From the IMG/VR virus record IMGVR_UViG_3300017748_000052, positions 1 through 31,902 of that record: DNA of 31,902 bases; one strand, written 5' to 3'. A program made the position numbers and the translations under genes. Positions 2,795-14,503 of the stretch are shown piece by piece. The notes beneath the pieces were generated by a model that searched no databases, had not been told where the DNA came from, and worked only from the letters and a program-made list of their open reading frames with translations. This DNA is from a virus. Position 1 is the first letter of the stretch. Each line of letters starts with the position of its first letter.

Positions 2795-3559
2795 ATGAAA
2801 AGAACAGATGTGATAAAGAAACTGCGTGAAATGCGCATCGATGAAAAGAAGATAGGCAAGCTGTCTTGGAAATTCTTGCCTGATCATTTGAAAATGGATG
2901 CTTTGTTGTCTGCGATCAAAGATCCGGATGAAGCTGAACAATATGTTGAGTTTGAGTGGGATGATCTTCCACCAGCCGTAACGCAGAACATGACATTGGA
3001 ATCAGTTAATGAAGGCCTGAAGTCAGTTCAGAAAAGAGACTGGGACAAGGCTGATGATGACCAAAAAGAAGAATGGTTATTACAAGCCTTTTCTGATCCT
3101 GATGATGCTGGACAATACATTGAGTTTGAGTGGGATGATCTTCCACCGGATGCTACTCAGAACATGACATTGGAATCAGTTAATGAAGGTAAAGATACCA
3201 TCAGTATGGACAGATTGAAAGAGATCATCAAAGAAGAGGTGATCAATGAAACAAGGAATCTGGACAAGATGCAATCCAAACTGCGTACAGTTGATAATGC
3301 GCAAGATGTGCTAAGAACATTACGAGACATCATATCTGACACTAATACATTCAATGGACAGCAGTTCACCAAGCTTGAGGACATCTATGAAGAGATCAGA
3401 GATCTGAAAAATGATTCTGGAATGAACATAGGAGATCTTGTGTCGCCGGCAATCCTGGCAGCGTTCAAAAAAGACATGGCAGAGATACCGACCGTACTTT
3501 CCATGCTCAGCGATCTTGAAGGTGATAGAGTATCTAAATACGCTGAATTTGGAGAATGA
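2795..3559 (+). CDS. Acidic tandem-repeat protein, possibly virion-internal
   Basis: A 254-aa protein with two 58-residue repeats in its first half. Both carry D-P-D-(E/D)-A-x-Q-Y-(V/I)-E-F-E-W-D-D-L-P-P and then T-Q-N-M-T-L-E-S-V-N-E-G (end at about 74 and 132). After the repeats comes R-L-K-E-I-I-K-E-E-V-I-N-E (140-152), which looks like a capsid-targeting peptide placed inside the protein, then a helical C-terminal part. The E-S-V-N-E linker links it to the preceding gene. Its last four bases overlap the next start (ATGA). No enzyme motif is visible. A structural or head-packaged role fits the neighbours but is not proved. Confidence 0.6.
   Translation: MKRTDVIKKLREMRIDEKKIGKLSWKFLPDHLKMDALLSAIKDPDEAEQYVEFEWDDLPPAVTQNMTLESVNEGLKSVQKRDWDKADDDQKEEWLLQAFSDPDDAGQYIEFEWDDLPPDATQNMTLESVNEGKDTISMDRLKEIIKEEVINETRNLDKMQSKLRTVDNAQDVLRTLRDIISDTNTFNGQQFTKLEDIYEEIRDLKNDSGMNIGDLVSPAILAAFKKDMAEIPTVLSMLSDLEGDRVSKYAEFGE
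2842..3015 (+). repeat. Tandem 174-bp coding repeat, unit 1
   Basis: First copy of a direct repeat with a 174-base (58-codon) period. The best conserved parts are around GAGTTTGAGTGGGATGATC (from 2948) and the stretch ending GAATCAGTTAATGAAGG (to 3015). Unit boundaries are approximate; similarity is weak in the first third. Confidence 0.65.
3016..3189 (+). repeat. Tandem 174-bp coding repeat, unit 2
   Basis: Second copy, offset by exactly 174 bases (GAGTTTGAGTGGGATGATC from 3122; GAATCAGTTAATGAAGG to 3189). Near-identity at the DNA level in two blocks suggests a fairly recent in-frame duplication or gene conversion. Confidence 0.65.
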
Positions 3560-4068
3560 AGTTAACCACCATCATAGAACAGATCATCACTGAAGTAGGA
3601 GAAGGTTCGGCTAAACCATATTCTTATAGTGTAAATGATAACGTCTTCAGAGGCAGCTCGAAAAATGTAACAGGTAGAGATGTTACCTTTACAACAGAAG
3701 ATGGAGATGATTACACAGTAAGCTTTGCTGCATATTATGGAGATCATTCAAATGCAGAAAAAAGAGGACCATATTTTAAAGTTGACTTTACTACGGTTGA
3801 TGAATATGGATACGAAGACGATGCTGAACGTGTTGTGAACAAAGGTCGATTATTCAGAGTGATGGCCACCATAGTAAAGGCTACCAAAGAATTTCTGAAC
3901 GACATTGATTACAAGGAAAAGGGCATCAAAACAATGCTGGTATTTCCTTCCAAATCCAAAAAGCGTGATCACAGACGTGCTAACCTTTACATGGCATATA
4001 TAAAGAAACATCTACCTACTTCTAACATCAAATATAATGGCCAAATAATTACGGTGACACTGAAATGA
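3556..4068 (+). CDS. Putative virion-internal protein, paralogue A
   Basis: A 170-aa protein, first of three adjacent paralogues. It starts M-K-L-T-T-I-I-E-Q-I-I-T-E|V-G-E-G-S-A-K-P-Y: a short amphipathic leader, an I-x-E cleavage-like site at E13, then the family signature. The core carries E-D-G-D-x-Y-x-V-S-F, V-N-K-G-R-L-F-R-V-M-A-T-I-V (about 95-108) and R-R-A-x-L-Y-M-A-Y-I-K-K-H-L-P (about 141-155). The leader is comparable to T4 internal proteins, whose N-terminal peptide takes them into the prohead and is then removed by gp21. No catalytic motif is seen. It overlaps both neighbours by four bases (ATGA), so the trio is one translational unit. Confidence 0.7.
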   Translation: MKLTTIIEQIITEVGEGSAKPYSYSVNDNVFRGSSKNVTGRDVTFTTEDGDDYTVSFAAYYGDHSNAEKRGPYFKVDFTTVDEYGYEDDAERVVNKGRLFRVMATIVKATKEFLNDIDYKEKGIKTMLVFPSKSKKRDHRRANLYMAYIKKHLPTSNIKYNGQIITVTLK

Positions 4069-4550
4069 TCAAGTTAAAGAACATATTACTTGAAATAGGC
4101 GAAGGTAGCGCAAAACCTTACAAATATAAGTTGACACGAACCGAGAGTGCCCCTGACTTTGGTGATTATTATAAACTCTATGAGTTTGTAACCGATTTAG
4201 ATACTCATTATGAAGTATCATTTGAAATAGAAGAAGATTTTTCAAAAGGTGAACCATGGGAGTTTATGAACATTGAATTTGGTGTAGATGAAAAAGATGG
4301 TGGAGGAATTTCTAATAAAATTGTAACTAATAAAGGTGAGTTGTTTAGGGTTATGGCTACAATAGTGGATATAACGAAAAGCATTTTGAAAGAGAGAAAA
4401 AACATAAAGCAGCTCGTATTCACCGGTGCTAAAAACCGAGGCGAAGATGATCAAAGAAGAAACAAACTTTATATGGCGTATATCAGAAAGCATGTACCTA
4501 ATATAAAGAACATAGAAGATGATGGAAGTGAAATAAGAGTTGATATATGA
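4065..4550 (+). CDS. Putative virion-internal protein, paralogue B
   Basis: A 161-aa protein, second and most divergent of the three paralogues. It starts M-I-K-L-K-N-I-L-L-E|I-G-E-G-S-A-K-P-Y, so its leader is three residues shorter and the candidate cleavage site is L8-L9-E10. It keeps the core N-K-G-E-L-F-R-V-M-A-T-I-V and R-R-N-K-L-Y-M-A-Y-I-R-K-H-V-P but lacks the E-D-G-D motif. The acidic middle differs from A and C. Four-base overlaps join it to A and C. A head-packaged role is inferred from the leader and the family context. Confidence 0.65.
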   Translation: MIKLKNILLEIGEGSAKPYKYKLTRTESAPDFGDYYKLYEFVTDLDTHYEVSFEIEEDFSKGEPWEFMNIEFGVDEKDGGGISNKIVTNKGELFRVMATIVDITKSILKERKNIKQLVFTGAKNRGEDDQRRNKLYMAYIRKHVPNIKNIEDDGSEIRVDI

Positions 4551-5773
4551 AACTAGTCAGCATACTCAACAATATTATCTCTGAAGTAGGTGAAGGTACA
4601 GCTAAGCCATATAACTACACTTCTATACAAGGTATACAAAGAAGTGATGAAGGCAATGGAGCACATGATACTTTCACGTTTAAAACAGAAGATGGTGATA
4701 CATATGAAGTGATGATGCATGCATTCTGGGGAGATAATTATCTTGCACAAAAACCTGTAGGTCCGCATTTCGAAATAGACTTCTGGGTTAAAAAAAGAGG
4801 TTCGGATACAAGAGATACGGACGTTGTTGTGAATAAAGGACGATTGTTCAGAGTGATGGCTACCGTAGTACAAATAGCCAAAGAATTCATGGATCTTGTC
4901 GATTACAAAGAAAATAATATAAATCAGTTAATCGTATCGCCTACAAAATCAAAAGGTGAATTTGATGACAGGCGCGCCAAATTATACATGGCTTACATCA
5001 AAAAACACTTACCTATCAAAGACATCAAATATGATGGCCATGAAATTGTAGCAACAATAAAAGAATCCGTTGATTTGTCTGAAGGTGTATATGATCCAGG
5101 AGTACTCAAAGCAGTATTTTTGGCAGGAGGACCTGGTTCAGGTAAAACATATATGGCACAGGAGCTGTTCTCATTCAATGCCGAGCGTATAGGAAGTGAT
5201 ACACCTTCCGGATTGAAATTTGTTAACACTGATCCGGCATTTGAATTCTATCTGAAGAAGCAAGGAGTAGATCCAAAGACGCTCCGATTCATGACTTCTG
5301 ATCAGTTTGACAAAGTGACAATGGGACCAGACTCTCCCAGAGAGAAGGCAAAGAAGCTCAGAAACATGCGACAGAAGTTCTTTGAGAAGGAGCGATTAGG
5401 TATGATCATTGATGGTACCGGAGATGACTTTGCAAAGATCAAAAAGAAGCGTGAGAGATTAGAAAAGCTTGGATATGACACTTATATGGTGTTCGTGAAC
5501 ACTGACATGGATGTAGCACTGCAACGCAATGCAGACCGGGAACGTAGTCTACCTGATGATCTTGTGACTGACATCTGGAAAGCAGTTCAGAACAATCTGG
5601 GCAAGTTTGCCAGACTCTTCGGTCAGGGACAGTTCTCCATTGTGGATAACACAGAATATGCTCCGCTCTCCAGAGAAGTGGACAAAGAGGTGCAACGATT
5701 TGTTCGTCAACCAATCCGTAATCCAATTGGTAAGAAATGGCAAGAAGCTGCCATTGAAATGAAGAAGCGATGA
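4547..5773 (+). CDS. Paralogue C fused to a zeta-toxin/PNK-like P-loop kinase
   Basis: A 408-aa two-domain protein. Residues 1-172 are the third paralogue: leader M-K-L-V-S-I-L-N-N-I-I-S-E13|V-G-E-G-T-A-K-P-Y, V-N-K-G-R-L-F-R-V-M-A-T at 95-106, and R-R-A-K-L-Y-M-A-Y-I-K-K-H-L-P at 142-156. Residues 188-370 are a P-loop kinase fold of the zeta-toxin/AAA_33 type: Walker A G-G-P-G-S-G-K-T at 194-201, a strand ending M-I-I-D-G-T-G at 286-292, and Arg-rich lid R-N-A-D-R-E-R at 327-333. The linker has I171-K-E173|S and L177-S-E179|G, both fitting the T4 prohead-protease rule, so the kinase could be released inside the capsid. Substrate unknown. No epsilon-type antitoxin is adjacent. Confidence 0.75.
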   Translation: MKLVSILNNIISEVGEGTAKPYNYTSIQGIQRSDEGNGAHDTFTFKTEDGDTYEVMMHAFWGDNYLAQKPVGPHFEIDFWVKKRGSDTRDTDVVVNKGRLFRVMATVVQIAKEFMDLVDYKENNINQLIVSPTKSKGEFDDRRAKLYMAYIKKHLPIKDIKYDGHEIVATIKESVDLSEGVYDPGVLKAVFLAGGPGSGKTYMAQELFSFNAERIGSDTPSGLKFVNTDPAFEFYLKKQGVDPKTLRFMTSDQFDKVTMGPDSPREKAKKLRNMRQKFFEKERLGMIIDGTGDDFAKIKKKRERLEKLGYDTYMVFVNTDMDVALQRNADRERSLPDDLVTDIWKAVQNNLGKFARLFGQGQFSIVDNTEYAPLSREVDKEVQRFVRQPIRNPIGKKWQEAAIEMKKR

Positions 5774-10642: not shown

Positions 10643-11044
10643 ATGAGTACATTAGATTTACATCCATTCGATTTGATGTTCCGCAATTTTTTTGACAACG
10701 GAACAGAGTTCAGAACAGCATTAAACAGTAAGGTTCAACATCCAGTTGACATTTCAGAAACAGATGAAGGTCTGCAGATTGAAATTGCAGCAGTAGGTGT
10801 TGGCCGGCAGGACTTGGAGTTACAGACCCAAGGAGATACTTTACGAGTTGCTTACCGTAAAGATACTCGTCCTACACATGAGTATATCCATAAGGGTATT
10901 GCTCGCAGAAACTTTGACCTAGGTTGGAGACTAGCAAGAAAGTTTAATTTGGAAAAGATAGACGCCAAGTTAGACAAAGGGTTATTATGTATCAAGGTTC
11001 CTTTTACTAAGGAACAGGCTACGAAAAAAGTTTCTATCAGCTAA
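10643..11044 (+). CDS. hsp20: Hsp20 small heat shock protein
   Basis: A 133-aa alpha-crystallin/Hsp20 protein, an ATP-independent holdase that keeps unfolding proteins soluble. N-terminal part to about 34 with L-H-P-F-D-L-M-F-R-N-F-F-D; alpha-crystallin domain from about 35 with P-V-D-I-S-E-T-D-E-G-L, then G-V-G-R-Q-D-L-E-L and a final strand G-L-L-C-I-K-V-P-F. A canonical I-x-I/V C-terminal tail motif is not obvious, though V-S-I-S may serve. Related genes are usual in T4-like cyanophages and other marine phages. It stands alone between an inverted repeat, with its own strong ribosome site, as an independent cassette. Confidence 0.9.
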   Translation: MSTLDLHPFDLMFRNFFDNGTEFRTALNSKVQHPVDISETDEGLQIEIAAVGVGRQDLELQTQGDTLRVAYRKDTRPTHEYIHKGIARRNFDLGWRLARKFNLEKIDAKLDKGLLCIKVPFTKEQATKKVSIS

Positions 11045-11131: not shown

Positions 11132-12199
11132 ATGAGACTAGGATATGCATGTACTAACATGACCTTAACTAATCGTCCTAAGAAGTTAGGAGGTAGAATA
11201 ACGACATCAAGAACTTTGAGACAGGCCTCCTGGCAACCGACCTGGGATCTGCATAGAGTAGGCGAACTAGCACTTGCTAATGCCACTGACTTATTAGAAT
11301 ATCTGAAATGGAATGATGAGCACAGAATAACATTGTTTCGAGTTGGATCTGAAATTGTCCCATGGCATGATCATTTTGAACTAACAGATCTTCCTCAATA
11401 TGAAGAATTATCCGAAGCTTTGATGAAGGCTGGAGATTATGCTCGTGAGCATGGTCATCGTCTCACAACTCACCCAGGCCCATTTCATGTATTAGGTTCA
11501 CCCACTCAAGATGTAGTAGAAAGAAGTATTGTAAGTCTCGAAAGACATTCTGAAGTATTTGATTTGATGGGCTTTGAACCATCCCATGAAAATAAAATTA
11601 ATATTCATATCGGAGGAGCTTATGGCAATCACGAAGGCACTGCAGTGAGATGGATTGAAGGTTATAATCGATTATCAGATGCTTGTAGAGCAAGGCTAGT
11701 CATTGAAAATGATGATAAGAACAGTATGTACAGTGTGCGTATGTTATATGATTTATTCCATCGTGTTGTAGGAATGCCAATCACATTTGATTATCACCAT
11801 CATATGTTCCATCCAGATGGTCTTGATGAATATGAAGCATTACAGATGGCAGCAGATACATGGCCTTCAGATGTACGACAATGTACTCATTACAGTGAAT
11901 GCCGTACACATGAGAAACAACGAGACTTTGAAGAAATGATTCAGAAGCAGGGCTTGAGTTTGAATGAAGTTCAAGAATGGCCTGAATTGGCAAAAATAAA
12001 ACATAACATTGATAAGATCAGAAAACAAGCACATTCTGATTACATCTATGATGAAATCCGTACATATGGTATGGACTTTGATATTGTGGTGGAGGCAAAG
12101 GCAAAAGAATTAGCCGTTCTCCATTACAGACATATTTATCCTAAAAGCGAAACAAAGGTTTACAATGAAAGACAGAGAGAATACACTAAGACGGCTTGA
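11132..12199 (+). CDS. uvsE: UV damage endonuclease (UvsE/UVDE)
   Basis: A 355-aa metal-dependent endonuclease that nicks DNA 5' of UV photoproducts and starts alternative excision repair. The start M-R-L-G-Y-A-C-T-N is typical. TIM-barrel metal ligands are in place: H114 in T-H-P-G, H159 in I-H-I-G-G, E192 in V-I-E-N-D-D, D220 and H223 in F-D-Y-H-H-H, and H253 in T-H-Y-S-E. The usual H-P-(G/D)-Q-(F/Y) motif, whose Gln is part of the lesion-probing wedge, reads H-P-G-P-F here. The C-terminal 80 or so residues after the barrel are basic, helical and longer than in bacterial enzymes. Made from its own early-type promoter. Confidence 0.9.
   Translation: MRLGYACTNMTLTNRPKKLGGRITTSRTLRQASWQPTWDLHRVGELALANATDLLEYLKWNDEHRITLFRVGSEIVPWHDHFELTDLPQYEELSEALMKAGDYAREHGHRLTTHPGPFHVLGSPTQDVVERSIVSLERHSEVFDLMGFEPSHENKINIHIGGAYGNHEGTAVRWIEGYNRLSDACRARLVIENDDKNSMYSVRMLYDLFHRVVGMPITFDYHHHMFHPDGLDEYEALQMAADTWPSDVRQCTHYSECRTHEKQRDFEEMIQKQGLSLNEVQEWPELAKIKHNIDKIRKQAHSDYIYDEIRTYGMDFDIVVEAKAKELAVLHYRHIYPKSETKVYNERQREYTKTA
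12131..12140 (+). promoter_or_regulatory. Possible late box CATATTTATC inside the uvsE end
   Basis: Nine of ten bases match CATATTTATA. It lies inside the uvsE coding end, 24 bases before the ATG of the 57-aa ORF and ahead of the membrane-protein gene. Being inside coding sequence, it could be chance. Confidence 0.3.
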
Positions 12200-13888: not shown

Positions 13889-14503
13889 ATGAAAGATCTT
13901 TACGGCGAATCCAGTCCTTCTAAAATCATGAAAGAACTAAACACAGAGACTGGTCATTTATATGAAATGCTTAATCATCAATTAGGAACACTGATTGATT
14001 ATGATGACTCAATTATATATCTGAATGAGGAAATAACTGATAGCAGTGTTACAGATTTTATTATTCGCATGCGAAGTTTACTTCAATATCGAGCAGATAA
14101 ACAAGCTCCTGTTAATATTTTGATTGACTCGCCTGGCGGTGATGTATATGCTACTTTAGGTATCATTGATTACATCGAACAACTGGATGTGAAAGTAAAT
14201 ACTCTTTGCCGCGGTAAAGCATTTTCAGCAGCAGCCATCATATTAGCATGTGGTACTGGGACTAGAATGTGTAGTAAACGTAGTACGGTTATGTTACATC
14301 AGACATCAAGTTTTTTAGGAGGTAAGATGTCAGATATATCTGCGTTTTTAGAGAATGTAAAAATGTTAGAAAATACTATTTATGATTTACTAGCAGAAAA
14401 AACAAAGAAAGATACATCTTTCTGGAGAGATAACATGAAGTCAGATATGTTCTTGACATCTGACCAATTGTTATCATATGGTTTAATTGATCAAATAATT
14501 TAA
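13889..14503 (+). CDS. clpP: ClpP-like serine protease
   Basis: A 204-aa S14-family protease. The catalytic triad is visible: S113 in R-G-K-A-F-S-A-A-A (G-x-A-x-S context), H137 in M-L-H-Q, and D186 in K-S-D-M-F-L-T; the S-P-G-G loop is at 81-84. Length fits ClpP. Cellular ClpP forms a 14-mer barrel fed by ClpX or ClpA; no ATPase is encoded nearby, so it may use host ClpX or act on unfolded substrates. Similar proteins occur in many T4-like marine phages. Head maturation protease is an alternative role, since ClpP-fold proteases serve that job in other phages, but no head gene is adjacent. Confidence 0.85.
   Translation: MKDLYGESSPSKIMKELNTETGHLYEMLNHQLGTLIDYDDSIIYLNEEITDSSVTDFIIRMRSLLQYRADKQAPVNILIDSPGGDVYATLGIIDYIEQLDVKVNTLCRGKAFSAAAIILACGTGTRMCSKRSTVMLHQTSSFLGGKMSDISAFLENVKMLENTIYDLLAEKTKKDTSFWRDNMKSDMFLTSDQLLSYGLIDQII

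Follow-up and report, generated by a model that had tools for sequence, protein, structure and literature searches.

The three-gene run and its features

A virus record of 31,902 nucleotides (IMG/VR record IMGVR_UViG_3300017748_000052, 31.9 kb, taken over its whole length and called the window below), the right end of which carries what look like T4-type baseplate genes, contains three consecutive open reading frames (ORFs), ORF1, ORF2 and ORF3, that are joined by ATGA overlaps and are paralogous over about 170 residues. A sequence-only reading of this stretch had proposed that their products are loaded into the prohead by means of a short leader, cut there and injected with the DNA, the third delivering a kinase to the new host. 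What it described in the letters themselves is all present: the overlapping ORFs, three motifs common to them, and a GGPGSGKT in the third, where Pfam AAA_33 and Zeta_toxin matches bear out the fusion to a P-loop kinase. The features are these, a slash marking a predicted cut here and throughout.

3556-4068, + strand: ORF1, 13-residue leader and DUF6934-like domain, 170 residues; has relatives
3556-3594, + strand: ORF1 leader MKLTTIIEQIITE, predicted cut E13/V14 (sequence, junction comparison, low AlphaFold2 confidence over the leader)
4065-4550, + strand: ORF2, 10-residue leader and DUF6934-like domain, 161 residues; Pfam DUF6934 31.5 bits, cut-off 27
4065-4094, + strand: ORF2 leader MIKLKNILLE, predicted cut E10/I11 (sequence, junction comparison)
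4547-5773, + strand: ORF3, leader, domain, 7-residue linker (ESVDLSE) and P-loop kinase, 408 residues
4547-4585, + strand: ORF3 leader MKLVSILNNIISE, predicted cut E13/V14 (sequence, junction comparison)
5075-5086, + strand: predicted internal prohead-protease site of ORF3, L177-S-E179/G180 (junction conservation in 69 kinases)
5084-5770, + strand: ORF3 kinase body, predicted to be released by the cut (AAA_33 3e-8, Zeta_toxin 2e-7; predicted local distance difference test score, pLDDT, of the model 91.9)
5126-5149, + strand: Walker A motif GGPGSGKT of ORF3 (sequence)

The two paralogues are 36% and 51% identical to the ORF1 domain, with genome-search E values of 8e-49 and 5e-27, and by this comparison the paralogy of the three ORFs can be taken as beyond chance.

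A junction conserved in kinases and domains

That these proteins would be cut is argued first by relatives of the kinase. We compared 69 distinct kinases from phage contigs, 59 of them of the leader type and 10 fused behind another domain; because the patterns used to retrieve them (KAxFxAGG, GYDxxxxF) lie inside the kinase body, conservation of the junction upstream is not a selection effect. The residue preceding the conserved body (P1) is Glu in 69/69, P3 is hydrophobic throughout (L53, I13, V2, M1), P2 is random (3.3 bits) and P1' is Gly in all but one (68/69). This junction sits where a variable upstream leader meets the conserved body and, in the predicted structure, falls at residues 10/11 of a kinase model in which the first 8 residues are disordered and the rest is well ordered. 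Every one of the ten upstream-fused kinases retains [LIV]xE internally, nine as xE/GxxD and one as LTE/A, and the L-S-E/G of ORF3 falls within the same pattern. In the DUF6934-like domain, unrelated and different in fold, the junction reads [LIMV]xE/[IV]G, seen in 36 copies that stand alone and in 18 that are internal.

Two cleavage sites had been read into the ORF3 linker, with new N-termini at S174 or G180. The residue numbers are correct and L-S-E/G coincides with the conserved junction, whereas I-K-E/S, although its letters are present, is not conserved and overlaps the 'IK' that closes the domain itself (other copies end in VTLK, AILK or ATFK); it was therefore rejected as a second cleavage site, leaving G180 as the predicted new N-terminus. 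Cleavage of ORF3 at G180 is likely on this comparison.

Leaders shared by unrelated proteins

The three window leaders, of 10-13 residues, all end in [IL]xE as had been claimed; their description as amphipathic holds for the first and third, with hydrophobic moments at the 95th and 96th percentile, and not for the second, at the 70th. The plain [IL]xE rule was rejected as proof of head targeting, its background rising up to 30%. Within the window alone the leader motif is weak evidence, and it becomes strong only once relatives are added. There, we counted how many pairs of non-homologous proteins resemble each other in their first 18 residues (threshold 34) against the count obtained at internal positions, and found 36 pairs versus 0-1 in G006, 19 versus 0 in G007, 11 versus 0 in G002 and 4 versus 0-1 in G005. 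Each phage has its own leader type, set on differing bodies, the arrangement known from T4. A gp21 gene is present in G005 (4.5e-32), the closest contig to the window that includes a head module, and in G007 (5.4e-13), both of which also encode gp23, while a gp21-type prohead protease is found in the phages HTVC008M, Melnitz and Atu_ph07 as well. Leaders, cleavage and injection all have their precedent in T4 (PMC9026906, PMC5694885, PMC12373910), a phage in which the signal led to the discovery of many ip genes. Among the gp21 sites given in the T4 literature are two in Alt, ITE-6 and LTE-619, and a predicted one in gp21 itself, LIE-9.

The number of domain copies varies in relatives: two in L006-L008, one in L009-L011 (leader MKHVKLFEELINE/IGD or a near variant), and five in tandem in contig L005. 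Behind these five come a protein of unassigned type, one resembling cupredoxins and a kinase that stands alone, and nearly every protein of this run begins MKxI..F..FI.E. The cupredoxin-like protein (L005:7640-7966) resembles plastocyanin and azurin (Copper-bind 6e-16), and its leader, MKYIKVYEKFINA, is of the same type as those of its cargo-like neighbours. By eye, each of the three window domains pairs with an L005 copy of its own, so that their divergence would have preceded the kinase fusion, and the paralogues appear to be old.

Relatives of the kinase occupy at least 597 stretches in viral contigs and occur in the isolates HTVC008M, Melnitz and Atu_ph07. The latter proteins (PHROG 2071 'ATPase' and PHROG 12810) contain the same kinase as ORF3, at about 37-45% identity and with the same xE/G junction, and differ in being standalone behind a leader of their own or in having other fusion partners; for the kinase of HTVC008M and Melnitz, the predicted mature N-termini are G9 and G10. 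In L108 a single chain of 1181 residues combines the kinase with PAP2, NTP_transf_2 and CTP_transf domains. Other long proteins (964-1252 residues, in L145, L149, L156 and L171) begin with the leader MNLITE/ or MNQLTKFLVDGILNE/, continue with a CTP-transferase-type motif and also hold one or two DUF6934-like domains at xE/VG sites. In 10 of 80 loci the kinase has a DUF6267 protein nearby, with a KWDGAP motif that recalls nucleotidyltransferases or ligases and often with the leader MYSFKQYLNE/A (for example L012:4242-5474, and in L086, L097 and L102).

Proteins found in virions of other phages

Virion mass spectrometry of the cyanophage S-CREM2, in the parts of the paper covered here, lists gp6, gp13, gp14, gp154 and gp136 among non-structural or unassigned proteins (PMC10665884, Table 3). 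Four of them begin with the leaders MKDFDSFLEE/ (gp6), MKDLHSFLTE/ (gp13), MKRFDAFLTE/ (gp14) and MQTFSMFFSE/ (gp136), and the cytidylyltransferase gp154, a CTP-transferase, with MKNFSSFLTE/A. Five S-CREM2 proteins in all have a leader of the MKxFxxFLxE type at E10, and each of them was detected in virions (5/5); by the plain [IL]xE rule, detection is 11/26 as against 18/126 (p 0.002). As the L108 chain carries CTP_transf, the kinase is there covalently joined to an enzyme class found in S-CREM2 virions. The virion-detected S-CREM2 proteins with this leader type (L205/L206/L208, OR473000) comprise an S-adenosylmethionine (SAM) hydrolase, an APH-like kinase, the cytidylyltransferase and a Cas9-like nuclease, in which ...LRFASFMAE follows an N-terminal extension, perhaps because of a misplaced start. 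The same parts of the paper make no mention of the leader type.

In Atu_ph07 the kinase protein is coding sequence (CDS) 53 when counted along the record, a numbering consistent with the positions of gp123, gp125, gp132, gp140 and gp141 relative to one another in the paper, as far as covered here. It lies inside the cluster CDS 31-76, 29 proteins of which were found in virions (PMC6102473), a figure for the cluster and not for CDS 53 individually. The kinase chain also contains domains that match the window domain by predicted structure (rank 22). In this phage, L014:366-6623 holds at least five adjoining paralogues, all beginning with a leader of the form M[KR]W[EN][QD]L[TN]E. They also have in common a YRGM...SF.C motif, by eye similar to ADP-ribosyltransferases, and the last of them is fused to the kinase and to two DUF6934-like domains. 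For the Atu_ph07 protein AUZ94865 the predicted mature starts lie directly behind MKWNDLNE and at the G of VTE/GVND.

What the kinase and the repeated domain may be

The kinase had been called zeta-toxin-like. It does reach the Pfam Zeta_toxin (PF06414) cut-off (31.3 bits versus 22.3; 1.8e-7), with AAA_33 scoring higher (3.1e-8) and PHROG 12810 at 1.2e-38, and zeta toxin is its best match both in the PDB by sequence profile (8.6e-5) and by Foldseek (1e-6). These are the observations that favour a packaged and injected zeta-type toxin in the strict sense, one that would phosphorylate UDP-N-acetylglucosamine and stop cell-wall synthesis in the host. Against it, VIA-align places the polynucleotide kinase CthPnkp (Z 15.6, root-mean-square deviation 2.9, 164 residues aligned) and, level with it, the seryl-tRNA kinase PSTK (15.3) above zeta (13.2), with T4 PNK at 12.8. 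Zeta toxin binds UDP-N-acetylglucosamine with an E-G-T-x-R motif; the kinase reads D-G-T-G-x at this position, and the Arg position is not conserved. The family resemblance stands, and the specific zeta identity is not supported: polynucleotide and seryl-tRNA kinases are no more distant from the kinase than zeta toxin is. It shares with all of them a P-loop kinase fold at an identity of about 20% or less, and a true zeta toxin is unlikely. A preference for a nucleic-acid end or a nucleotide over UDP-N-acetylglucosamine is weakly indicated. A regular repair pair of the kinase with a HAD phosphatase was rejected, as the HAD-type motif (the phosphatase partner as in T4 PNK) occurs in just 3 of 80 kinase loci, in one of them fused (L107).

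As to the domain that is repeated, ORF2 passes the cut-off of Pfam DUF6934 (PF22028), ORF1 itself fails, and 24 of 32 family members match this model at E values up to 1. The structure model of the domain (pLDDT 82) gives a weak Foldseek match to the GNAT-type AtaT2 (8e-3) and a VIA Z score of 8.5 to Elp3, close to the background range; the order of strands and helices fits GNAT. The acetyl-CoA motif Q/R-x-x-G-x-G/A is not recognisable by eye, the segment at that place reading N-K-G-x-L-F-R-V-M-A-T. A DUF6934-like domain with a GNAT-type fold is a possible assignment. Homology to the N-terminal domain of T4 Alt, to which a similar layout and a Foldseek hit on the 'RNA polymerase ADP-ribosylase' of an Aeromonas phage had pointed, was rejected, profile-profile comparison (hhalign) giving P-values of 0.2-0.4 and supporting no similarity; so was the reading as Alt of a 681-residue match in Shigella phage MK-13, as this phage is an Ackermannvirus and the protein has no name there. 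A direct search of an isolate-phage collection with ORF1 returned zero matches, and the literature searched contained no mention of DUF6934.

Comparison with known head-protein systems

The window proteins resemble IPI-IPIII of T4 in having leaders of about 10 residues that end in [IL]xE, in the clustering of their genes and, as seen in relatives, in the use of one leader type on unrelated bodies, cut in T4 by gp21 (PMC9026906, PMC12373910). They differ from them in that the T4 bodies are unrelated, whereas the window, from the world of marine phages, repeats one domain and fuses one copy to an enzyme with an internal site. A second comparison is with T4 Alt, the packaged ADP-ribosyltransferase, a head enzyme cut at ITE-6 and LTE-619 (PMC5694885), an N-terminal part of which is duplicated in alt.-1 and alt.-2; in contrast, ORF3 has a kinase in place of the ADP-ribosyltransferase, and its domain is without significant sequence match to Alt. 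The S-CREM2 virion enzymes share the leader form MKxFxxFLxE/, and their cytidylyltransferase class is fused to the kinase in L108 and L127, whereas the gp149-179 region, in the material covered, contains neither the kinase nor a DUF6934-like domain. The window proteins would belong with the internal proteins of T4 type; the kinase, their putative cargo enzyme, is widespread, and the predicted internal cut site is conserved.

An explanation and its alternatives

We can understand the three ORFs as follows. The short N-terminal leader would bind the prohead core and carry the protein inside, as T4 precedent and leader sharing suggest; a gp21-type prohead protease would then cut after [IL]xE and free the domains, in keeping with the conserved junction, and in ORF3 it would also cut at L-S-E/G, so that one gene yields a separate mature domain and kinase. 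If T4 is a guide, the mature proteins would remain associated with the DNA and pass with it into the next cell upon infection; there the kinase might phosphorylate a small molecule or a nucleic-acid end before phage genes are expressed. We hold it to be probable that these are T4-type internal head proteins of this kind, targeted by their leaders, cut, injected and with the kinase freed, and consider packaging of the window proteins into the head, taken by itself, to have about the same good likelihood. This much of the earlier proposal, head-targeted and protease-cut cargo with release of the kinase, agrees with the 69/69 junction, the domain junction, leader sharing and the S-CREM2 virions, shorn of I-K-E/S and of the specific zeta identity.

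Several points weigh on the other side. Leader similarity within the window alone is not significant, 0/896 non-homologous pairs passing a threshold of 30 (background 0-1). Head genes are missing from the window, a fragment, which leaves its own protease and cleavage logo unreadable. The invariant Glu could serve as a structural N-cap instead of a cleavage site, and the search pattern for the domain contained E-[IV]-G, so that conservation of its P1, though not of its P3, is partly selected. The S-CREM2 leader motif was sharpened after inspection of the data, and the authors, in the parts covered here, leave contamination open as the source of these proteins (PMC10665884); the shared leader argues against contamination. 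Overall the head-cargo reading appears well supported, though indirectly.

The proteins might, as an alternative, be prohead-core or structural helpers that work in assembly, as scaffold or in condensing the DNA, with no need to be injected or to act on the host. Cargo and core look alike in leader and site, since gp67, gp68 and gp22 of T4 are cut by the same protease, and a head-module protein of G007 starts with MKIKTFNQFITE/A, of the same leader type; yet a P-loop kinase that is apparently intact, with invariant GGPGSGK, Asp and Arg residues, is hard to explain as scaffold, and a copy number ranging from 1 to 5 across relatives is unlike that of essential core proteins, which makes this a quite improbable account. 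Still less probable are ordinary cytoplasmic infection proteins, with a leader that forms a conserved amphipathic helix for some other purpose and ends in [IL]xE by coincidence: the motif turns up often close to N-termini (in 10 of 38 window ORFs) and cytoplasmic P-loop kinases are common in phages, but a P1 Glu that is invariant beside a random P2, and is kept internally in fusions, is not expected of them, nor are its recurrence in an unrelated domain, the leader common to unrelated proteins, or the S-CREM2 virion data.

Neighbouring genes

If the three proteins are head cargo, the genes just upstream may include further members of the run.

1852-2781, + strand: ORF with a similar leader, MKLSKLLKE/V; candidate cargo of the same gene run (sequence)
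2795-3559, + strand: ORF overlapping ORF1; candidate cargo or core protein, an assignment of the inferred kind (sequence)

The second of these has an internal repeat, two units of the FSDPDDAGQYIEFEWDDLPPDATQNMTLESVNEG type, both ending MTLESVNE/G. Further along, an ORF at 11132-12199 resembles by eye a UV-damage endonuclease, with a small-heat-shock-like ORF (10643-11044) and a ClpP-like ORF (13889-14503) near it.

What phages may deliver with their DNA

Proteins that phages inject besides their DNA are known for few systems, mostly T4. The conserved junction suggests that in many marine phages the particle contains this kinase and passes it to the host infected next. It is conceivable, and we put it forward tentatively as a possibility somewhat short of even, that many T4-like marine phages deliver a modular kit of enzymes, among them the kinase, nucleotidyltransferases and the DUF6934-like domain, in the form of precursor polyproteins, and that the prohead protease divides these into single enzymes in the capsid before injection. 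With a readable tag and an invariant cut site, the cargo of uncultured phages could be catalogued from their sequences, and exact mature N-termini could be predicted. Leader and cut site, read in this manner, also offer an explanation for the kinases and nucleotidyltransferases that recur in the virion proteomes of cyanophages, where, in the sources as covered here, contamination had stayed possible, and this explanation may be checked by re-reading mass spectra that already exist.

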